64,000 bases of DNA, from assembly GCF_017309385.1 (NCBI RefSeq), contig NZ_JAFJMJ010000001.1, positions 1,736,001 to 1,800,000 of the forward strand, written 5' to 3'. Under the pieces are notes generated by a model, which had not been told where the DNA came from, did not search any database, and saw nothing but the letters and a program-made list of their open reading frames with translations. How positions within the stretch are numbered: the first letter of the stretch is position 1; each line of letters begins with the position of its first letter. The stretch comes from Amycolatopsis sp. 195334CR. Its GTDB lineage: Bacteria; Actinomycetota; Actinomycetes; Mycobacteriales; Pseudonocardiaceae. The position numbers were made by a program, and so were the translations under genes. Below are positions 34,538 through 46,238 of the stretch, in pieces.

Positions 34538-35509
<972 letters not shown>

Positions 35510-35510
<1 letters not shown>

Positions 35511-36598
35511 CAGACACTCTCCTTCTCACGAAGCCGGGCCGGATCGGCCGCGGCCACCCCGGGCGGCGCCGGTGCGCCGTCGAGCGCGGCGAGCACCGCG
35601 TCGGCGGTGATCGGCGCCATCAGCAGGCCGTTGCGGTGGTGCCCGGTCGCGGCGAACACCCCGTCCGGCAGCCTGCCGATGAAGGGCAGGTTGTCCACGC
35701 TGGCCGCCCGCAGCCCGGCGGCCGTCTCGGCCAGTTCGTACTCGGCGATCGCCGGGAACACCCGTTCGGCGCCTTCGAGCAGCTCGCGCACCCCGCGTGC
35801 GGTGACCACCTCGTCGAAGCCCGCTTCGTACTGGGTCGCGCCGAGCACCAGCTCACCGCCCGCGCGCGGCACGAGGTAGATGGGACGGCCTTCCGCGTAC
35901 GCCCGCACGGTGTGGGCGGGCGGGCCGAGCGTGGTGCGGCGGGCCCGCAGGCGCAGGATCTCGCCCTTGAGCGGGCGGACCGCGGTTTCCAGCGCCGGGT
36001 GCAGGCGGGCGCTCCACGCCCCCGCGGCGAGCACGACGAGGTCGCTGGTCAGCGTGCGCCCGGTGGTCCGGACGGTCTCCGGGCCGAGTTCGACGACCTC
36101 CTCGCGGATCGGGTCGAGGTGCCGGGCCAGGGCGTCGAGCAGGGCGCGGTTGTCCACCGAGAGGTCGCCCGGGACGGACAGGCCACCGCGGATGGAGCCC
36201 GCGAGGCCGGGTTCCCGCTGCCGCAGTTGTCGACTTGTCAGCTTTTCGGCCTCGCGACCGACGTGGTGGAGGTAGGCCGCGAGCTGGTCGAGCACGCCCA
36301 GGTCAGCGCTGTCCAGAGCGGCGACGAGGGTGCCCTTTTCGGACAGTCCGCACCCGCCGAGGCCTGCGGCGAACCGCGGCCACCGGCGCAGCGACTCCTC
36401 GCCGAGGGTGAGCACTTCCTCCTCGCCGGGCCAGGCCTCGGTGACCGGCGCGAGCATGCCGCCGGCCACCCAGGAGGCGCCGGTCTTCGGCCACGGGTCG
36501 ACCAGTTCGACCTCGTGACCTCGGGTTTTCACGCGCCAGGCGACGGCGAGGCCGACGACTCCGCCGCCGACCACGGTGACGCGGTGTTTTCGCTTCAT
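35510..36598 (-). CDS. thiO: Glycine oxidase ThiO
   Basis: 362 residues from ATG 36598. FAD-binding Rossmann motif [20 protein letters not shown] at the N-terminus, [20 protein letters not shown], and the C-terminal [20 protein letters not shown] with [12 protein letters not shown] near the flavin and substrate. It oxidises glycine to dehydroglycine, the imine used by ThiG. It is the first gene after the TPP riboswitch and is directly joined to thiS. Confidence 0.95.
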
Positions 36599-36605
36599 GG
36601 AAATC

Positions 36606-36692
36606 ACGCTCCCTGCGCCGGCATGACCCGGATCAGGTTCCACGGTCGGAGCGGCAGCTCCCTCTCAGCCCGTGCCTCGGGCTCCCGTGCGG
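36606..36692 (-). promoter_or_regulatory. TPP riboswitch (THI element) of thiOSG
   Basis: On the minus strand: GCACGGGAGCCCGAGGC, then GGGCTGAGAGGGAGC and GACCGTGGAACCTGATCC followed by GGGTCATGCCGGCGCAGGGAG, the conserved sensor arms of the TPP aptamer. It ends 7 bp before the thiO ATG, so control of translation start is likely. Its 5' end lies only 38 bp from the divergent thiE start. Confidence 0.95.
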
Positions 36693-36730
36693 ACATTTCC
36701 ACCGTAACACCGCGGGGTACCGTCGCGAAC

Positions 36731-37396
36731 ATGCCTGGGCTGGATGGTGACGAGATCAGGAAGCGCCTCGACGCGGCGAAGCTGTACCTGTGCGTGGACG
36801 CGCGGGGTGCCCGCGGGGACCTCGCGGAGTTCCTCGACGCGGCGCTGGCCGGTGGGGTGGACGTGGTGCAGCTGCGTGACAAGACCAGCGGCGCGCCGCT
36901 GGAGGCGAAGCAGGAGCTGGCGGCGCTGGAGGTGTTCGCCACCGCGTGCGCCCGGCACGGCGCGCTGCTGTCGGTGAACGACCGCGCGGACGTCGCACTG
37001 GCGGCCGGGGCCGACGTGCTGCACCTCGGTCAGGACGACATCCCGGTGCCGCTGGCCCGGCGCATCCTCGGTGACGACGTGGCGATCGGGCGTTCGACGC
37101 ACTCGGGCGCCCAAGCCCGCGCGGCCGCCGCCGAGGCGGGCGTGGACTACTTCTGCACGGGGCCGTGCTGGCCAACGCCGACCAAGCCGGGCCGGGAAGC
37201 GCCGGGCCTCGACCTGGTGCGGGAAACCGCTTCGCTCGGCACGACCCGGCCGTGGTTCGCCATCGGCGGCATCGACCAGTCGCGGCTGCCGGAAGTCCTG
37301 GAGGCCGGCGCCACGCGAATCGTGGTGGTCCGCGCCATCACCGACGCGGAGGATCCCACGGCGGCGGCTCGCGCGCTGAAATCCGCCCTCGTTTAA
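36731..37396 (+). CDS. thiE: Thiamine-phosphate synthase ThiE
   Basis: 221 residues from ATG 36731. TIM-barrel motifs are [65 protein letters not shown], the pyrophosphate loop [16 protein letters not shown] (where most members have Val-Phe-Pro-Thr) and FAIGGID. It joins HMP-PP and the thiazole phosphate. It is divergent from thiO with 132 bp shared, mostly filled by the thiO riboswitch, so thiE itself appears not to be under a TPP switch. Confidence 0.95.
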
Positions 37397-38120
37397 CGTC
37401 CTTCGCCGGCCGGAAAGTCACTACCGGTGGAGTTCGGCGTTCTGGTCCGACTATTTCCGCGACCAGCAGGGCCAGATGGTCTAAAGCCGCGCCGACTCCG
37501 CGGCAGAACGTTGAACAATGGCGACAGACCGCGCGTGTAGAACTGCCGGTCAAGCGTTATACCCAGCTGTCCGGCCGAGCCGAACACCACCCGGCAGGCC
37601 GGACAGCGGCGTGTTCGAGTCGCCGACTCGCGCCGGAAACCTTTGTCGTCCCGGGGCGAAACCACCATACTGGGCACCTGTACCTGTTCTGCACCCGCAG
37701 AGGAGAGCACAAGTGCGACGGCGACGTACGTCCGCACCACCGCCTACCTCATCGTGTGACGAGCAGGGACACATTTTCACCCGGGCAATGCACACGCGCG
37801 CCACCACACGACCGAGCAGACACCGCCCGCGTGCCCACACGACCGCCCGGCCCCTCACCCGGGAAAACCAATCGGCCCCCGGAACGAGTGAGGTGGGCCG
37901 CACTTGATCTTTTTCGCGGATGACACTGCGTCACTTGATAGCACAGACGACTGGATTCCCGCCGCGTCGAAAGTTCTGCCTCAAACTCGCACCCAGAGTG
38001 CGATTCGAATCACCCGAAAACGCCATAGCTCCGAATCTTTCGATGCAATTCGACCTGGTAGCCTCTGTGCCCCGCCAACGGAAACAATCGTGCGACAATT
38101 GACTGCGAGGGGACAAGTCC
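37397..38120. other. 724-bp gap without a supportable gene, falling GC
   Basis: No open frame here has plausible codon use or a recognisable product. GC falls from about 65% near thiE to about 50% at 37,900-38,110, well below the neighbours. No tRNA, repeat or transposase trace was found. The last 25 bases carry GAGGGGAC, the likely ribosome site of the kinase gene at 38121. The promoter of that gene should lie here. Confidence 0.6.
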
Positions 38121-38795
38121 TTGTCCGAGAAAAGTGGAAAAAAAGTGGTCATAGCCGTGGACGGGCCCGCCGCCGCCGGCAAAACGACGACCTGTCTCGC
38201 CCTGGCCGACACCTTTGGCCTGCGCTACCTGGAGAGCGGGCGCACGTATCGGATCGTCGCCTACGAAGCGCTGCGCCGCGGCGTAGCCGTGGAGGACGGG
38301 CGAGCCGTGGTCGGCCTCTGCGACGACCTGATAGACGAAAGCCGCAGCACCAACCTGCTCGCCTCCACCAGATACGAGCCCCAGGAGCTGAGATCGATTT
38401 CGGTCAACCGAACGGTTTCCGCGGTGGCCAGGATCGGCGAATTACGCGGCCGCGTCACCGAGCTCATCCACCTGTGGGCGAACGCGCAAGCCCGGTGCGT
38501 GGTGGAGGGGCGGGACATCGGCACCGTGGTGTTCCCCTCGGCACGGGCGAAGTTCTACTTGACGGCGCGACCGGAAACCAGGGCGCGGCGAAGGGTCCAG
38601 CAGGAGGGGCGCGGTTCCTACGAAGAAGTGCTGAAGGACGTCATCCGGCGTGATGAAGCCGATATGTCACGGAGCGTCTCCCCGCTGAAACCGGCCCCTG
38701 ACGCGGTGGAAATCGACACCACTTCACTCTCCGTCAACCAGGTGGTGGACCGAATGGTCGACGTTTGCCGAACCCGGGGTGTAGCAATTTCATGA
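38121..38795 (+). CDS. Cytidylate kinase-like nucleotide kinase
   Basis: 224 residues from TTG 38121, chosen because GAGGGG lies about eight bases upstream and an in-frame ATG is lacking. P-loop GPAAAGKTTT; LESGRTYR stands where Cmk has LDTGAMYR; the strongly conserved VVEGRDIGTVVFPSA and RPETRARRRVQQEGRGSYEE follow. It should phosphorylate CMP/dCMP or a related nucleotide. Housekeeping cmk normally lies beside der/rluB-type genes; here it is the first gene of a cassette and is coupled (ATGA) to a HIT gene, so a specialised paralog is inferred. Confidence 0.82.
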   Translation: MSEKSGKKVVIAVDGPAAAGKTTTCLALADTFGLRYLESGRTYRIVAYEALRRGVAVEDGRAVVGLCDDLIDESRSTNLLASTRYEPQELRSISVNRTVSAVARIGELRGRVTELIHLWANAQARCVVEGRDIGTVVFPSARAKFYLTARPETRARRRVQQEGRGSYEEVLKDVIRRDEADMSRSVSPLKPAPDAVEIDTTSLSVNQVVDRMVDVCRTRGVAIS

Positions 38796-39271
38796 TCGAC
38801 AACGACGGAACGATGGAGTCGCCCTACGCCCGACGTCGCGGTGGCGACTCCCGGCGATCGGACGGTGACGACGTGACGGACTGCTTGTTCTGCGAAACCG
38901 ACGACCCGTCACTGAACGGCGTCCTGCTCGACGGACAGTTGTTCTACGTTCGCTGGGACAACTTCCCCATCGCCGAAGGACACGTCGAGATCGTGCCCAA
39001 ACGGCACGTGGCCAGTTATTTCGACCTCACCGACGAAGAAGCCGCCGAAGCGTACGAGACCATCAAGAAAGCGCGCGAACTCCTCGACAAGAAGTACCAG
39101 CCGGATGGCTACACGATCGGGGTCAACGAGGGACGAGCGGCGGGACGCACGATCGACCACCTGCACATCCACCTGATTCCACGCCACGAAGGCGACGTAC
39201 CCGATCCACGGGGCGGGGTGCGGGGAGTGCTGCCTGGCCCCCACCCGGACGAGTGGAGTTCTAGGACTTGA
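38792..39271 (+). CDS. HIT-family nucleotide hydrolase/transferase (HIT-1)
   Basis: 159 residues from ATG 38792; starts further in, near VTDCLFCE, are possible. A Cys-x2-Cys (CLFC) opens the domain, then NFPIAEGHVEIVPKRHVASY and the histidine triad HLHIHLIPR with the following GDVPDPRGGVRGVLPG, all typical of bacterial HIT hydrolases that split nucleotide-phosphate linkages through an NMP-histidine intermediate. Its 3' end overlaps the converging methyltransferase gene by 11 bp. Its pairing with a CMP kinase suggests work on the same nucleotide pool. Confidence 0.88.
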   Translation: MIDNDGTMESPYARRRGGDSRRSDGDDVTDCLFCETDDPSLNGVLLDGQLFYVRWDNFPIAEGHVEIVPKRHVASYFDLTDEEAAEAYETIKKARELLDKKYQPDGYTIGVNEGRAAGRTIDHLHIHLIPRHEGDVPDPRGGVRGVLPGPHPDEWSSRT

Positions 39272-39890
39272 GAGCTTCGGTGACGAACCAGTCGCCACGC
39301 GAGCTGTACACGGTCGTGGTGGAAATGAACCCCACAGCCAGGAGATCCGCTTCGACCGATTCCGAGGTGCGCAGCGCGAACCACCGCTCACAGGGCAGTC
39401 GCCTCCCCGTTTTCCACCCGTCGTAGTCGCCGGCCTGGAGGCTGATCGCGGCAGTTCCTCCTGGCCGGAGCACTCGCTTCAGCTCGGAGAAACTGCGGCG
39501 GTGGTCGTCACGGGGCACGTGGAGCACACTCGCGCAGGCCCACACACCAGCGAACACCGCGTCGCGGAACGGCAGATCGAGCAGGTTGAGCTGCACGATT
39601 TCGGCCGCGGCGCACCGAGTTCGGGTCTTCTCGAGCATGCGCTCGCTGATGTCACCGGAGATCACCGCCAGCCCCTTGCCGAGCAGGTACTCGGTGTCCC
39701 GGCCCGCCCCGCAACCCAGGTCCAGCACCGGACCGCTCGGCAGCGCGGCGGCGAACCGGTCCAGTTCCAGGTCCAACCCGGGGAATTGGTCGAGGGTCCT
39801 GGTCGCCTGCTCGAACTGGTCGGCGTACTCGTTGTAGGTGTGCCTGGTCGCCCGCGCGATCTCCGCCGCGCCACGGAGGTTCAGATGCAC
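39261..39890 (-). CDS. Class I SAM-dependent methyltransferase
   Basis: 209 residues. Motif I is VLDLGCGAGRDTEYLLGKGL (about 55-75), followed by the acidic motif II region VISGDISERMLE, LLDLPFRDAVFAGVWACASV and LKRVLRPGGTAAISLQAG. The fold binds SAM; the substrate is open. Conserved Tyr and Trp near the end (KTGRRLPCERWF) shape the pocket. It overlaps the upstream GAF-like gene by 10 bp and the converging HIT gene by 11 bp, so it is the last gene of a four-gene minus-strand unit. Confidence 0.88.
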   Translation of the reverse strand: MHLNLRGAAEIARATRHTYNEYADQFEQATRTLDQFPGLDLELDRFAAALPSGPVLDLGCGAGRDTEYLLGKGLAVISGDISERMLEKTRTRCAAAEIVQLNLLDLPFRDAVFAGVWACASVLHVPRDDHRRSFSELKRVLRPGGTAAISLQAGDYDGWKTGRRLPCERWFALRTSESVEADLLAVGFISTTTVYSSRGDWFVTEALKS

Positions 39891-40645
39891 TCGAAGTCCT
39901 CCCGGCCGATGTAGATGCCCAGGTTGGTCATCTCCTCCAGCACCTCACGGCGGTAGAGCACGGGGTAGCCGTGGCTGGCGTCGAGGCTGATGCAGCCGAC
40001 GAACTTGCTCCGGCCGTTGCGGATCGGTGTCGCGAGGACCGCGGCGCGGTGCTTGACCCGGTCGAAGCCCTCCCAAGTGAGGTTCATCACCCTCTCCGGA
40101 TCATCCTCCCGGACCCGGTCGAACGCATCTCGATCAGTCAGCTCGGCGGCCAACGGCCCCACATCGACGGCGTACTCGCGGTCGTACTTCCAGCACAGGC
40201 CGACCACACCCTCACCCAGGACCGGGGTGAACCGCCGCGTGACCGGGTGGGTGGACATCCGGTAGGTCGCCAGGCGCTTGAGCACCCCGCGGATCGGGTG
40301 GCGCAGCGTTCTCCGCTTCCGCCACACGTGCAACGCCAGGTCCCCGGTCTCCAGGGGCGGCTCGATGGCTTGGCTGATCACCAGCAGCTTGCCGAAGCTG
40401 GAGAGGATGCTCCGCCGCATGATCACGTTGCGGTCCGCCATCGCGCGCGCCTGCCAGGCTTCGAACGGGGTCAGCGCACCGAAGACGCCGGCGATGCCGA
40501 GCAGCACGAGCATGACGTACGGCCGGTTGCCGAGCAGCGCGTCCCAGAACGGCTTCGACGGCACGTGGTACGCCTTTCCCGCCAGGCCCAGCGTCGCGAG
40601 CAGCAGGAACGCCTTGTCCAGGAGCTTGGCCGTCGAGCGCTTCAC
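39881..40645 (-). CDS. Two-helix membrane protein with GAF-like domain
   Basis: 254 residues from GTG 40645, overlapping the ThiL-like stop (GTGA). Two hydrophobic helices lie at about 11-27 and 43-60, then a basic, amphipathic linker. The C-terminal half (about 140-245) resembles a GAF domain: GEGVVGLCWKYDREYAVDV and AVLATPIRNGRSKFVGCISL followed by DASHGY. No catalytic output domain is present. A membrane-bound sensor or an effector gated by a small molecule made by the neighbouring enzymes would fit; this is inference. The family assignment is by pattern only. Confidence 0.6.
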   Translation of the reverse strand: MKRSTAKLLDKAFLLLATLGLAGKAYHVPSKPFWDALLGNRPYVMLVLLGIAGVFGALTPFEAWQARAMADRNVIMRRSILSSFGKLLVISQAIEPPLETGDLALHVWRKRRTLRHPIRGVLKRLATYRMSTHPVTRRFTPVLGEGVVGLCWKYDREYAVDVGPLAAELTDRDAFDRVREDDPERVMNLTWEGFDRVKHRAAVLATPIRNGRSKFVGCISLDASHGYPVLYRREVLEEMTNLGIYIGREDFECI

Positions 40646-41718
40646 GCTCCGACGTCAGCCGGGTCTCGGGGAGCGTGCCGCCACGCCTTGCCGGGCAGTT
40701 CGGTGCGCGTGCCGTCGTCGCGGACCAACACCACGTCCCGCTGCTCGGTGACCACGCCGACCTGGTGGAAGTCGAGCCGGTCCGCGAGCCGGCCGAGCTG
40801 GTCCTCCGGTGCGGTGAACAGCAGTTCGAAGTCGACCGAGTCGCCGAACACGACCGACAACGGATCGAGACCGAGGTGCGCCGCCACCGCGGACACCGCG
40901 CCGGGCACCAGCAAGGCCCGCTCGTGGACCTCGACCCCGACAGCACCAGCCGACGCGAGGCCGTGCAGCGCCGCCTTGAGCCCATCCGAGGTGTCCTGGC
41001 AACTCGTCACCACCCCGCTGGCACTGAGCGCCACACCGCTCTCGACCCTGGCCACCGGTCGCCGCCAGTAGGCGAGCATGGTTTCGAGGTGGCGCTCCTC
41101 GATCACGGGGTGGGGGTCGGCGGCGCGCAGGTAGGCCATGGCGGCTCCGGCGAAACCGGTGGGTGCGGTCAGGCAGATCGCGTCACCCGGCTTCGCGCCG
41201 GCCCGGAACAGCACCCCACCGGCCGGGCACACGCCGAGGGCCGACGCGGACAGGATGAGGCGCTCGGCACCACCGATGTCACCACCGACGTTCGGGCACC
41301 CCGAGGCCGCGCACGCGTCGCGGATGCCCTCCAGCACCCGCTCGAACACCGCGTCGGTCATGTCCGGCGGGTAGCGGACCACCGAGAGCAGGCCGATCGG
41401 TCTGGCCCCCATCGCGGCGATGTCGCTCAGGTTCGCCACCACGAGGTAGTAGCCGAGGTCGTACTCCGCCAAATACCCCATTTCGTACAGCCGGAACTTG
41501 GGTCCGCGAACGTAGTCGGAGCCGGCCACCAGCTCGTGGTCGCCGTGGAAGCGGAACACCGCGCAGTCGTCCTGCGCCTCGACCCCGGCCAGCAGTTCGA
41601 CTCGGCTCCGGTCCGGCCGGCTCACCGGTTCGAAGGCGTCGCGCTGGCCGCGGAAGAGCGGCACGACCACGTTCGCCAGCCTGGTCGGTTCGTCCGAAAA
41701 CGTCGGGTCAGTACGCAT
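40642..41718 (-). CDS. ThiL-like kinase / AIR synthase-related protein
   Basis: 358 residues from ATG 41718. PurM/ThiL fold: AQDDCAVFRFHGDH (metal and ATP site), GSDYVRGPKFRLYE, the conserved YYLVVANLSDIAAMGARPIG, NVGGDIGGAERLILSASALG, and CQDTSDGLKAALHGL, the counterpart of ThiL DISDGL. ThiL phosphorylates thiamine-P to TPP. The N-terminal region differs and the protein is longer than most ThiL proteins; its place between HIT and GAF-like genes suggests that a different phosphorylated substrate is used. A housekeeping thiL elsewhere is expected but cannot be checked here. Confidence 0.8.
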   Translation of the reverse strand: MRTDPTFSDEPTRLANVVVPLFRGQRDAFEPVSRPDRSRVELLAGVEAQDDCAVFRFHGDHELVAGSDYVRGPKFRLYEMGYLAEYDLGYYLVVANLSDIAAMGARPIGLLSVVRYPPDMTDAVFERVLEGIRDACAASGCPNVGGDIGGAERLILSASALGVCPAGGVLFRAGAKPGDAICLTAPTGFAGAAMAYLRAADPHPVIEERHLETMLAYWRRPVARVESGVALSASGVVTSCQDTSDGLKAALHGLASAGAVGVEVHERALLVPGAVSAVAAHLGLDPLSVVFGDSVDFELLFTAPEDQLGRLADRLDFHQVGVVTEQRDVVLVRDDGTRTELPGKAWRHAPRDPADVGA

Positions 41719-42415
41719 GCCGTCGGTCCTCCGCTCGGCTGTGGACGCCGGCCAGCCTGGCCGACCACGACCGGACCTCCCGCATGGTCGAACGAAGCAC
41801 TTCCTTGCGCATGACCACGGCGTAATCCCATTCCGGGTCTTCGATCGAAAGGGTGGCGCCGACCACCGCACGCAGGTACTGCCGCCGCTGCGTGGTCGGC
41901 AGGTAAACGCGGCAGCCCTGCTCGTGCAAGCGCAGGAAATAAGCCGAATTCGGCCACGGCGGAAGAGAAAGTTCGGCCAGTGATCCGAGATCGCGGTAAG
42001 CCAGCCCGTCACCGATCATGATCCGGTCCACCGCGGCCGGGGAAACGGGAAGCAGGTGCAGGTGCGCATGCGTGATGCAGGCGTGGCTCACTTCTCCTCT
42101 GCTGGAACCGTGTTCGAGAAACAGCGGCTCCCGGAAAGCCTCGCGGTAGAGTTCGGCCACTCGGCCGATCAGTTCCACCGCCTCTCGCTGGTGCACGGTC
42201 AGCACCTGCGCGAAGGACAGGTAGTGCTGCTTGGGCAGCAGCAACAGGTGGCCGTCGGTCAACGGTGACAGGTCGGCCAGCAACTCGAAGTTCTCCGTCG
42301 AATGCACTCGCCTCGACGGCGGGTCGCCTTCGTAGAAACGGCTGAACGAGGTATCGGCCGCACCGGAAATTTCCTCGCAGAAATCCGCCCCCGTGCACTG
42401 CACGGCAGTGATCAT
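41708..42415 (-). CDS. HIT-family protein with C-terminal extension (HIT-2)
   Basis: 235 residues from ATG 42415. The histidine triad is THAHLHLLPVSPAAV, preceded by DGHLLLLPKQHYLSFAQVL. About 75 residues after the HIT core form an extension with two Trp-Pro-rich segments (LPPWPNSAYFLRLHEQGC, DPEWDYAVVMRKEVLRS), which is unusual for a simple HIT hydrolase and may recognise the substrate or bind a partner. It is the first gene of the minus-strand arm and overlaps the ThiL-like gene by 11 bp. Confidence 0.8.
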   Translation of the reverse strand: MITAVQCTGADFCEEISGAADTSFSRFYEGDPPSRRVHSTENFELLADLSPLTDGHLLLLPKQHYLSFAQVLTVHQREAVELIGRVAELYREAFREPLFLEHGSSRGEVSHACITHAHLHLLPVSPAAVDRIMIGDGLAYRDLGSLAELSLPPWPNSAYFLRLHEQGCRVYLPTTQRRQYLRAVVGATLSIEDPEWDYAVVMRKEVLRSTMREVRSWSARLAGVHSRAEDRRHAY

Positions 42416-42734
42416 CTTTCCCCCCGACGTCGCGTCGCGATGCGGCCTGGTGTAGCGGCATTTTTCCGCATGCGCTGCGCGAACTCGAACCCTCGCCGGA
42501 AGGTTAGCTCAAACGTCGCAATAGCCGTCGGGAAAGGTAGACCGGCTGTTTGGAACTTCGCCGAACAGCGACTTCACTACTCCGGACTGGCCTGCGGCAC
42601 CCGCACAAGTTGTCCAGTTTCTGCCCGGCCGCCGATTAGTGATAACTCTTTCGTTTCCGATCGCAGGAAATCGCCCACACCGGAGACGGCGACCGCCCGG
42701 CGGTGCGGCCGCCGCCGGGCGGTTCGACGCGGTC
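42416..42734. other. 319-bp gap upstream of the HIT-2 arm
   Basis: No supportable gene. The half next to HIT-2 (42416-42660) is poorer in GC than its surroundings, mirroring the gap on the other side of the cassette. The promoter for the minus-strand arm should lie here, but no clear -35/-10 pair was recognised. Confidence 0.5.
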
Positions 42735-43649
42735 TCAGCCCCCGTCGCCGGATTGGCCCTGGGGAGCGCTCGGTTGCGTGCTCGGTGCCGGTTTCTCGGT
42801 GGTGGTGACCGACGGCTTCGGGGCGCTGCTCGTCGGCGGGTCCGAGGGTTCGGCCGGGGCGGTGGTCGTGGGGGCGCTGGACTCGGTCGCCGGGGCCTGC
42901 GAGGGTTTGCTCGCCGGGGCCTCGCGGGTTTCCGACGCCGGCGCCTGCTCGGTGGGCGCGTCCTGCTTGCCACCGCCACCGCCACTGACGATGTGGCCTA
43001 TGGTGCTCCGGCCATCCCCGGAGATGCTGCTGCCGGTGGCGAACTCGAACCCGGTGATCACCAGGATCGCCAGCACGAACCCGACCACGCTGGTGCCGAT
43101 GACCAGCGGCCACCGCAACTTCCGCAGGCGGCTGACCTGCTGCTCACCCTCGGGCGCCTCACCATCGGTAGAGGTCACCGGCAACTCCGCCGTCGCTCCC
43201 GATGGCTCACCGGCCTCCGAAGACTCGCCGGGCGCCGACGGCACACCAGGCGCCGCGCCGCCCGCAGCCGCGCCTCCGAAAGCCGCGTCGCCCGAAGCTG
43301 GGCCCGCCGAAGCCAGGCCTCCCGAAGCCGCGTCGCCTGAAGCCGGGCCCGCCGAAGCCGGGCCTTCCGAAGTCACGCCGCCCGAAGCGGCCGTGGCGCC
43401 CGAAGCGGGTGCCACCTGGGGTCGCGTCGTCAGCGTGCGGGCCTTCAGCGCCGCCGCCTTCGTGCGGTCGAGGGACCGCAGGTACAGCTCCCCGCCCACG
43501 GTGGTGATCACGCTCGCCAACCCGGCGCCGAGCACCGTGCCCGCGACGCCCAGGGTCGAACCGAGTAGGGCCGCGGTCACCGCGGCCAGCGCGGCCGCCG
43601 CCACCTGGATCGGTCTGATTCCTGATTTCTTTTCCGTCTCCTCTGACAT
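42735..43649 (-). CDS. Pro/Ala-rich membrane protein of unknown function
   Basis: 304 residues from ATG 43649 (MSEETEKKSGIRPIQVAAAA). A hydrophobic Ala/Gly segment spans about 14-46. It is followed by a degenerate repeat in which PASAGPASGDAA and SGGLASAGPASGD recur (about 85-130), a second membrane helix (WPLVIGTSVVGFVLAILVIT, about 180-200), a Gly run GHIVSGGGGGKQD, and a Thr/Pro/Ser-rich tail. The repeat is encoded by variants of a roughly 30-bp unit, so slippage is likely. Composition suggests a cell-envelope protein with a long disordered exterior. No domain is recognised. Confidence 0.75.
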   Translation of the reverse strand: MSEETEKKSGIRPIQVAAAALAAVTAALLGSTLGVAGTVLGAGLASVITTVGGELYLRSLDRTKAAALKARTLTTRPQVAPASGATAASGGVTSEGPASAGPASGDAASGGLASAGPASGDAAFGGAAAGGAAPGVPSAPGESSEAGEPSGATAELPVTSTDGEAPEGEQQVSRLRKLRWPLVIGTSVVGFVLAILVITGFEFATGSSISGDGRSTIGHIVSGGGGGKQDAPTEQAPASETREAPASKPSQAPATESSAPTTTAPAEPSDPPTSSAPKPSVTTTEKPAPSTQPSAPQGQSGDGG

Positions 43650-43802
43650 GGATCCGTTTCTTCTCCACCCCTGCGACTACTCCTTCTCCCAACGAACAAG
43701 GCGTCCGGGATGCTCCCCGCGTTGCCCGATGGTGAGCCCCGCCACGCTGTCTGTCCACTGTGGACTACGCGCGATTCACCGATCCTTGACATACTCACCG
43801 TT

Positions 43803-44753
43803 ATGCAGCTGATCTCCCTCGAGCACATCCGGACCGCGGCCGGCCGGATCGCCGGCGCCGCGATCCGCACCCCACTGCTGCCCCAGCACTGGGCGACCGG
43901 CGCCCCGCTCTGGCTGAAAGCCGAGAACCTGCAAGGGATCGGCGCGTTCAAGATCCGCGGCGCGTACAACGCGATCGCCGCGCTGAGTGAACCCCAGCGC
44001 CAACGCGGAGTGGTCGCCTACTCCAGCGGCAACCACGCGCAGGCGGTCGCGGTGGCGGCGAAGATGTTCGGCGTCCCGGCGGTCATCGTGGTCCCGGACA
44101 GCACCCCGCGCAACAAGGTCGAGGCCACCACCGCGCACGGCGCGAAGGTGATCGAGGTGCCCATCGCCCAGCGCGAGATCGCTGCCCAGACCCTCGCCGA
44201 CCAGCGCGGCTTCAACCTCATCCCGCCCTTCGACCACCCCGAGGTGATCGCCGGGCAGGGCACCATCGGCCTGGAGATCGCCGAGGACCTGCCCGGCACG
44301 CAGGTGGTGCTGGTGCCGGTCAGCGGCGGCGGGCTGGCCTCCGGCATCGGCACCGCGATCAAGTCCCTGCTGCCCTCGGCCAGGGTGTACGCGGTCGAGC
44401 CGGAACTGGCCGCGGACACCGCGGAAAGCCTGCTCGCCGGCACCAGGGTCGACTGGCCGGTCGAATGGCGGGCGCGCACCATCGCCGACGGCCTGCGCGC
44501 GCAACCGTCCGAACTCACCTTCGCGCACCTCAAGCGGGTGGTCGACGGCATCGTCACGGTCAGCGAGGACGAGATCCGCGCGGCCGTCCGGGTGCTGGCG
44601 ACCAGGGCGAACCTGGTCGCCGAGCCCAGCGGCGCGGTGACCACGGCCGCCTACCTGTTCCGGCGCGACGAACTGCCGGAGGGCCGCACGGTGGCCGTCG
44701 TCTCCGGCGGCAACATCGACGCGGCCCTGCTCGCCGAGCTACTCCGGGCGTGA
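43803..44753 (+). CDS. Threonine/serine dehydratase (PLP, fold type II, no ACT domain)
   Basis: 316 residues from ATG 43803. The PLP lysine is in GAFKIRGAYNAI. The phosphate loop is SSGNHAQAVA and the glycine loop PVSGGGLASGIG. Late motifs are NLVAEPSGAVTTAAY and VVSGGNID. Lacking the C-terminal ACT regulatory domain of biosynthetic IlvA, it belongs to the short catabolic/serine-racemase-like type, giving 2-oxobutyrate or pyruvate plus ammonia; racemase activity is also possible. Its end overlaps the converging MFS gene by 15 bp. Confidence 0.9.
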   Translation: MQLISLEHIRTAAGRIAGAAIRTPLLPQHWATGAPLWLKAENLQGIGAFKIRGAYNAIAALSEPQRQRGVVAYSSGNHAQAVAVAAKMFGVPAVIVVPDSTPRNKVEATTAHGAKVIEVPIAQREIAAQTLADQRGFNLIPPFDHPEVIAGQGTIGLEIAEDLPGTQVVLVPVSGGGLASGIGTAIKSLLPSARVYAVEPELAADTAESLLAGTRVDWPVEWRARTIADGLRAQPSELTFAHLKRVVDGIVTVSEDEIRAAVRVLATRANLVAEPSGAVTTAAYLFRRDELPEGRTVAVVSGGNIDAALLAELLRA

Positions 44754-46238
44754 CCGGGCGTAGGCCGACGGCGGCGCGTCCACCCCGCAGTGCAGGCACT
44801 CGCCCGGTTCCGGGTGGTCGTGCTCGGGTTCCGGCACACTGAGCACGTCGTTGCGCACGCCGATGGCCACCAGCCCACCGGCGACCGCCAGCCCCGCGCA
44901 CACCAGCAGCGCCGTCCGCCAGCTCGCGGTCAGCGCCACCGGATCGGCGTAGGCCGCCCCGGTCAGCCCGGCGACCGCGGGCAGCAGCGCGATGGCGAGC
45001 AGCCCGCCGGTCCTGGCGATGGCGTTGTTCACCCCGGAGGCGACCCCGGCGTACTGGTCCGGCGCCGCGGCCAGCACGGTGGCCGTCACCGGCGCCACCA
45101 CGGTGGCCAGCCCCAGCCCGAACACGGTCACCGCGGGCAGCACCGCCCCCAGGTACGAGGCCCCCGGTTCGACGCGGAGCAACAGCAGCATGCCCGCCGC
45201 GACCAGCATCGGCCCGGCCACCAGCTGCAGCCGCGGCCCGATCTTCTGCGCCAGCCGTCCCGAGTACCCGGAGAGCACCAGCATCACGACGGTGATCGGC
45301 AGCCCGGCCAGCCCGGCCGCGGTCGGCGAGTACCCCAGCGACACCTGGAGCTGCAGCACCATCAGCATCATCACGCCGCCGAGCGCGGCGTAGACGACCA
45401 GCGTGAGCCCGTTGGCCAGGGTGAACGTCCGGTTGGCGAACAGCTGCGGCGGCACCAGCGGATCGGCCGACCGCCGCTGGAGCACCACGAAGGCCACCAG
45501 CCCGGCGACCCCGGCCACGCCGGACCCGAGCACCAGCGCGTCACCGGCCCCGCGCACCGGCAGCTCGACCAGCGCCGCGGTGATCCCGGCCAGCCCCACC
45601 GCGCCGACCACCGAGGCCAGCACGTTCGGCTTGCCGGTGTGCTGCTGCTGGTCGCACGACTCCGGCACGTACTTGCGGGCCAGCCAGACGCAGACCACCG
45701 CGATCGGCAGGTTGATCAGGAAGGCCAGCCGCCACGACCAGACCTGCACCAGCAGCCCGCCGACCAGCGGCCCGATCGCGGCCGCGATGCCACCGAGCCC
45801 GGACCAGGCGCCGATCGCCCTGGCCCGTTCGGCCCGCGGGAACGCCGACTGCAGGATCGCCAGCGAACCGGGGGTGAGCAGCGCGCCGCCGATGCCCTGG
45901 AGGATCCGGGTGGCCACCAGCATCTCGGTGGTCACCGCGAGCCCGCACAACACCGACGCGACGCCGAACCAGACTACGCCGATGACGAAGACCCGCCGCC
46001 GCCCGTACCGGTCCCCCAGCGAACCGGCGATCAGGATCAACGACGCGAGCGCCAGCATGTACCCGTCGAGGATCCACTGCAGACCGGAAACCGAGGCCTC
46101 GAGCTCCTCGCCGATCCGCGGCAGCGCGACGTTGACGATCGTGCCGTCGAGCATGGCCATGCCCGACCCCAGGATGGTGGTGGCGAGCACGCCCCGCGCG
46201 GCGGGCGTTCCCCAGCGGACGAGATCGGGTGCGGTCAC
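44739..46238 (-). CDS. MFS drug-exporter, DHA2 (EmrB/QacA) family
   Basis: 499 residues with 14 predicted membrane helices. Family motifs are [17 protein letters not shown] (motif D1), [17 protein letters not shown] (motif A), [19 protein letters not shown] (motif B) and [17 protein letters not shown] (motif C, antiporter). Proton-driven export of drugs or metabolites is expected. The cytosolic tail is odd: [16 protein letters not shown], with His and Cys-x2-Cys that could bind metal. GTG 46238 overlaps the GntR stop by 4 bp, so the regulator and exporter are coupled. Confidence 0.92.

Follow-up and report, generated by a model that had tools for sequence, protein, structure and literature searches.

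The stretch of DNA analysed here (the window) comprises 64,000 nucleotides of the 9.93-Mb genome of Amycolatopsis sp. 195334CR (Pseudonocardiaceae; C1:1736001-1800000) and contains a cassette of six genes in two convergent arms, all of which had been recognized in a preceding interpretation of the DNA alone (the sequence-only reading). The first arm, on the forward strand, consists of cmk (38121..38795), which codes for a Cmk-type P-loop kinase of 224 amino acids with a TTG start, and hit1 (38792..39271), coding for a Fhit/Ap4A-phosphorylase-like HIT protein of 159 amino acids (counted from an ATG) with an intact HxHxH motif. The second arm, on the reverse strand, begins with hit2 (41708..42415), whose product of 235 amino acids is a HIT protein with a Cwf19-like C-terminal part and also an intact HxHxH motif. 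It continues with thiL-like (40642..41718; a ThiL/PurM-fold kinase paralogue of 358 amino acids), gaf (39881..40645; a membrane-anchored GAF-fold protein of 254 amino acids), and mt (39261..39890; an S-adenosylmethionine-dependent methyltransferase of 209 amino acids). Five of the proteins are named by Pfam and NCBIfam, as cytidylate kinase (PF02224, 202.8 bits; TIGR00017, 171.1 bits, cut-off 135.55), HIT (HIT1: PF01230, E 6.5e-21 with a longer frame, with relatives in the PDB), methyltransferase (PF08241, E 6.5e-20), AIRS/ThiL (TIGR01379, 185.7–186.8 bits, cut-off 184.15), and HIT (HIT2: PF01230, 32.7 bits, above the cut-off; E 5.4e-07). The GAF protein had no match at E <= 0.1 in Pfam, NCBIfam, or PADLOC.

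Every junction in the window is an overlap, of 4 bp (cmk-hit1 and gaf-thiL), 10 bp (mt-gaf), or 11 bp (thiL-hit2 and the convergent ends of hit1 and mt). The sequence-only reading, which had described all genes as overlapping or touching, thus holds for this locus, but overlaps are less uniform across the 17 loci described below. With the start codons of the relatives picked by a script, mt and gaf overlap in 15 loci, gaf and thiL in 12, thiL and hit2 in 14 (one a fusion), and hit1 and mt in 13, the latter being separated by 0–21 bp in three loci and by 1,049 bp in one. In this last genome an insert of about 1 kb (L024:7962-9010) with a gene read as MerR-like lies between the convergent ends. 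As had also been stated, the cassette is flanked by DNA of lower G + C content, which amounts to 0.61–0.64 in the intervals at 37500–38499 and to 0.64 at 41750–42749, versus 0.70–0.77 in most intervals farther away. Upstream of hit2 on the reverse strand lies a conserved element (42501..42521; TTGCGACGTTTGAGCTAACCT (TTGCGACGTTYGAGYTAAYCT)) with a single match in the window versus 0 expected. Its 13-base core also precedes hit2 in 10 of the 16 relatives, as well as in one remnant of the cassette (L073), and the element probably is the promoter of the second arm. A crude count of dyads, made to find a regulatory motif common to both arms, placed the top dyads upstream of hit2 only.

Insertion and distribution of the cassette

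A relative without the cassette (G087) contains the empty site. The flanking sequences are 88–90% identical in both genomes, but lie only 112 bp apart in G087 versus 5,381 bp in the window, positions 37398 and 42780 of which align to L158:11732 and 11845. The 5,381 bp that hold the six genes (37399..42779, delimited by the ends of the blastn alignments) are absent from G087 and thus represent an insertion. The empty site (L158:11733-11844) consists of a long hairpin, probably a bidirectional terminator, that separates two convergent genes and was replaced by the insertion. Insertion at a tRNA gene was rejected because none is located within 35000–45000, and insertion between long repeats because a single 12-base direct match and no long terminal repeats were found. 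No Rfam family was detected at gathering scores within 37000–43700.

Among 390 genomes of the family (that of the window included), 17 from five of the 46 genera encode the GAF protein, and the 16 further loci were examined as 20-kb stretches. Whether the six genes stay together elsewhere had been named as a check by the sequence-only reading: all 17 genomes carry the full set, in identical order and orientation. Six kinds of surroundings were counted, and neighbour families found in at least three loci never cross between the groups of loci. One neighbour family (F44) is common to two loci. The fixed order, the six kinds of surroundings, and the empty site in G087 rule out chance clustering, and the association of the six genes in a kept order is more than chance. 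As judged from these genome comparisons, the six genes are shown to be gained and kept as a set within the family.

The scanned motifs of Cmk, HIT1, the ThiL-like protein, the methyltransferase, and the GAF protein as well as the catalytic triad of HIT2 are kept in all 17 cassettes. HIT2 scores above 188 bits were obtained for 19 of the 390 genomes, that is, the 17 cassettes and two remnants. One remnant (G080) has kept cmk, hit1, and hit2, with cmk split by a frameshift and the central His of HIT2 replaced by Arg; the other (G127) has kept cmk and a frameshifted hit2.

Pairwise protein distances, calculated for 16 of the 17 genomes, correlate at 0.85–0.96 among the six cassette proteins and at 0.68–0.82 between these and the separate ThiL that each genome encodes elsewhere (the house ThiL). 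Saccharothrix carnea and a second member of its genus (G064) have house ThiL proteins that are 97% identical and cassette proteins that share 67–79% identity, and the cassettes occupy different sites. The tree of all six proteins clusters these two with the three cassettes of the window's group (91/94 support), and the house ThiL tree places them with Lentzea. Horizontal transfer of the cassette is therefore likely rather than proven, since the tree support is moderate.

In a sample of 394 genomes from the class and one of 397 from the order (the window's included), full-length GAF proteins were restricted to the genus; the samples otherwise contained three and two weak partial matches, respectively. 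Relatives of 44–49% identity occur, among the matches listed, in Micromonospora, Solwaraspora, Actinomadura, and Streptomyces (107 among 7,999 scored candidates). The contigs that encode GAF and HIT2 are of the same size in Micromonospora musae and also in Streptomyces sp. SID3343, and the two genes hence probably occur together. Distant GAF relatives without a cassette were also observed (L051:7638-8474, L056, L057, and L058), one of them in a metagenome-assembled genome of the Thermoleophilia near an integrase-like gene. A single-sequence scan of genome contigs for GAF had no useful outcome.

Two kinases with housekeeping names

The database names invite the explanation that the six genes are ordinary housekeeping paralogues, i.e., a spare cmk, thiL, and HIT gene that adjoin by accident. 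The NCBIfam equivalog models are indeed those of cmk and thiL, public records name the ThiL-like protein thiamine-phosphate kinase, and the thiamine genes thiE and thiO adjoin the cassette in the window. The kinase is moreover the sole cmk found in this genome, where no other protein matches PF02224, and in one other cassette genome (G138), a situation that the sequence-only reading had singled out for attention; the remaining 15 of the 17 genomes encode a separate cmk. All 17 cassette kinases have the P-loop and the RRD..D..R motif. Compared with 20 cmk sequences (one of them, L115, of the cassette type), 45 sites are kept in the cassette kinase and 28 are switched. The cassette-free genome G087 has no good cmk match either, and in G087, G138, and the window's genome (G000) the place of cmk beside der is held by a different P-loop gene (L054:3485-4120, L053:3745-4380, and L052:2506-3141, respectively), whose G000 copy matches AAA_17/AAA_18 of Pfam. 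A non-orthologous replacement of cmk by this gene is possible.

The ThiL-like protein, in turn, is not the only ThiL of any cassette genome, which the sequence-only reading had left to be checked. Each of the 17 genomes encodes a second ThiL with 267–284 bits in TIGR01379, compared to 187–217 bits for the cassette copy. An alignment with 19 house ThiL sequences, of which cassette genomes contributed 16, revealed that 47 near-invariant sites are kept, including acidic ones of the metal- and ATP-binding type, and that 74 are switched, many of them to residues that do not vary among the 17 cassettes. The separate thiL genes and the 74 switched sites rule out that the ThiL-like protein serves as house ThiL, and these exchanges at house-conserved positions suggest that it has acquired a new substrate. 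Since, in addition, the order of the six genes is fixed in all 17 genomes at six kinds of site and thiE/thiO lie beside the cassette in three of the 17 loci only, an accidental assembly of housekeeping paralogues is very improbable.

HIT proteins, the GAF protein, and their relatives

The best single hint that HIT2 and the ThiL-like protein act jointly is found in Actinokineospora terrae, one of the 17 genomes, where both are encoded in one open frame (record P0262, 563 amino acids, with HIT and AIRS domains). The profile of the HIT2 family aligns with the CWF19-like protein 1 across the HIT domain and the C-terminal part (E 3.7e-08), and CwfJ_C_1 was detected in 29 of 81 HIT2 relatives, with no CwfJ_C_2 among the families listed. 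In contrast to eukaryotic Cwf19L1/CwfJ, HIT2 is bacterial, lacks the N-terminal region, and has kept the catalytic triad, at which the human protein is gapped. To our knowledge, the eukaryotic chemistry of Cwf19-like HIT proteins is unsettled.

Four more distant clusters combine a protein of the HIT2 family with genes resembling those for nucleoside monophosphate (NMP) kinases, dCTP deaminase, phosphoribosyl pyrophosphate (PRPP) synthetase, or Que-type proteins. A relative with 29% identity (L074) is encoded near a dCTP-deaminase-like gene, and one with 23% identity (L075) near dTMP-kinase-like, GMP-kinase-like, and QueC genes (Pfam). Using HIT2 of Streptomyces lydicus as query, further relatives were found on a plasmid of Streptomyces sp. 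Mg1 (L154; 29.0%), near a dCTP-deaminase-like gene, and on a plasmid of Rhizobium leguminosarum (L155; 30.7%), near dTMP-kinase-like, PRPP-synthetase-like, and PfkB genes. The clusters differ from the cassette in that tblastn found no relative of its cmk, ThiL-like, GAF, or methyltransferase genes in L074 and L075, and in L154 and L155 the other cassette genes were judged absent from annotation and reading frames only. These neighbourhoods are taken to indicate a nucleotide theme in the HIT2 family, and are no proof of one for the cassette itself. The cluster in L075 (3800-14600) has a low G + C content and contains QueC, NMP-kinase-like genes, the HIT2 relative, and an exporter, with QueD and QueE assigned by reading only; its product is perhaps a 7-deazaguanine nucleotide.

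The structure of the GAF-like protein, which the sequence-only reading had proposed to predict, was modelled confidently, with a predicted local distance difference test score (pLDDT) of 92.9, and the model has a GAF fold. Residues 67–253 of the model match GAF domains in Foldseek and VIA, including cAMP-bound Lcd1 and GAF domains that bind cyclic nucleotides, and all 17 proteins share C151, W152, and C218; a PDB profile search had no useful outcome. Of the two transmembrane helices claimed earlier, one is a clear membrane stretch in the hydropathy plot (within residues 37–64) and the second would be an N-terminal helix seen additionally in the model, and two helices are therefore likely, although not certain.

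Relatives of HIT1 were detected at E <= 1e-20 in 24 of 370 sampled genomes, namely the 17 cassette genomes, the remnant G080, and six others, with two extra copies in G119. Eight stretches encode a HIT1 relative that is not part of a cassette, and in two of them a cassette-type cmk lies beside it: one pair (L117:16441-18063) is located about 5.4 kb from a gene for a TIR-domain protein and the other (L149:11462-15832, with hit1 in two pieces) about 1.5 kb from CRISPR-Cas genes. These neighbours support the main rival explanation, a conflict or anti-phage system in which the enzymes would produce or eliminate a modified nucleotide or a nucleotide signal, with the membrane GAF protein as effector. 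The patchy occurrence (17 of 390 genomes), fast divergence, apparent mobility, and decayed remnants of the cassette would fit such a role, and HIT1 matches the PADLOC model of ThsC (E 5.3e-13), the HIT component known from Thoeris. However, no TIR or other Thoeris protein is present among the six (Pfam, PADLOC), nor did Pfam reveal a classical effector domain (nuclease, TIR, pore). The cassette flanks are no defence islands either: the ten nearest genes scanned are mostly ordinary (e.g., DnaB, peroxidase, DNA ligase), and 59 flank proteins yielded seven PADLOC families with one member each and no prominent system. Neither GAF nor HIT2 relatives were found in viral contigs, and no GAF relative in plasmids; the HIT1 search of phages recovered general HIT relatives only, and that of plasmids for the ThiL-like protein, among the matches listed, only house-type thiL or unannotated genes. 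A defensive function is considered less likely than the interpretation favoured below, but more likely than the other alternatives.

The stand-alone cmk-hit1 pairs in L117 and L149 would also suit a resistance or detoxification set, in which the HIT proteins cleave nucleotide-linked antibiotics and the kinase and methyltransferase complete the inactivation. Microcin C-type clusters contain a ThiF-like adenylating enzyme and a precursor peptide; Pfam detected no such enzyme among the six proteins, and no search was made for a precursor peptide. HIT hydrolases such as MccH, the immunity protein against microcin C, are described in PMC7157772 as protecting against peptide-nucleotide antibiotics, and would be comparable to the cassette's HIT proteins as HIT hydrolases associated with a nucleotide-linked compound. 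Resistance would leave the dedicated ThiL-like kinase with its HIT2 fusion and the fixed GAF partner unexplained, and no transporter or toxin-making gene was detected by Pfam among the six, which makes this explanation improbable.

A possible function of the cassette

The favoured interpretation, to which we assign a probability of roughly 45%, is that of a portable and self-contained six-gene module that is horizontally mobile, produces or modifies a small molecule linked to a nucleotide, and detects it at the membrane. It follows the sequence-only reading, which had proposed that the genes make, edit, and sense a nucleotide-like metabolite and is supported in part, and it draws on the fixed gene set, the GAF fold, and the kept motifs, which are those of nucleotide- and ATP-handling proteins. 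Further points in its favour are the six kinds of surroundings, the empty site in G087, the correlated protein distances, the HIT2-ThiL fusion, the separate thiL genes with the 74 switched sites, and the neighbours of the four distant HIT2 relatives; the order of steps is one that we infer. The ThiL-like protein would phosphorylate a small substrate other than thiamine phosphate, and its partner HIT2 would move or remove a nucleotidyl group on that phosphate via the central His. The methyltransferase would then cap the product. HIT1 could free the NMP part, which the CMP-type kinase would rephosphorylate, making the first arm one of turnover or salvage. The membrane-anchored GAF protein, finally, may bind the product or a precursor and report or respond.

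Several observations weigh against this interpretation. The module has no known substrate or product, and the six genes include none for making a scaffold or for export. The GAF model also matches methionine-sulfoxide reductases (fRMsr), and GAF folds serve as enzymes and as sensors of other ligands. The junction of cmk and hit1 is an overlap in only four of the 17 loci and a gap of 38–168 bp in 13, cmk is missing from six of the eight stretches in which HIT1 relatives were found apart from the cassette, and the hit2 gene of one cassette (G110) has a frameshift beyond the triad, which reflects either a mutation or an error in sequencing. Furthermore, HIT2 relatives in Streptomyces lydicus, ThiL relatives in Thermomonospora, and both on contigs of the same size in a Nonomuraea are not accompanied by GAF among the matches listed; the unit may therefore be smaller than six genes outside the family, where the genes are possibly separable.

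A more specific version of the proposed module is a portable nucleotide-signal or antimetabolite system, in which a neofunctionalized ThiL kinase and the Cwf19-like HIT protein, to which it is fused in one species, build a methylated nucleotide conjugate, the membrane GAF protein serves specifically as receptor or effector for this conjugate, and the convergent arm of Fhit-like HIT protein and CMP-type kinase turns the conjugate over. At this level of detail the proposal is doubtful.

Each of the cassette proteins belongs to a known family, and the set itself was not found in print, as far as covered by the open-access literature, which misses most subscription papers. If the favoured interpretation is correct, actinobacteria exchange a 4.3-kb set of genes that both conducts and senses a nucleotide chemistry of its own, and that is hidden because its members bear the housekeeping names cmk, thiL, and HIT. 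In that case, automatic names like 'thiamine-phosphate kinase' and 'cytidylate kinase' can mask such systems. The cassette would then represent a bacterial pathway for ThiL-fold kinases and Cwf19-like HIT proteins that can be cloned as a whole and perhaps yields a new small molecule.

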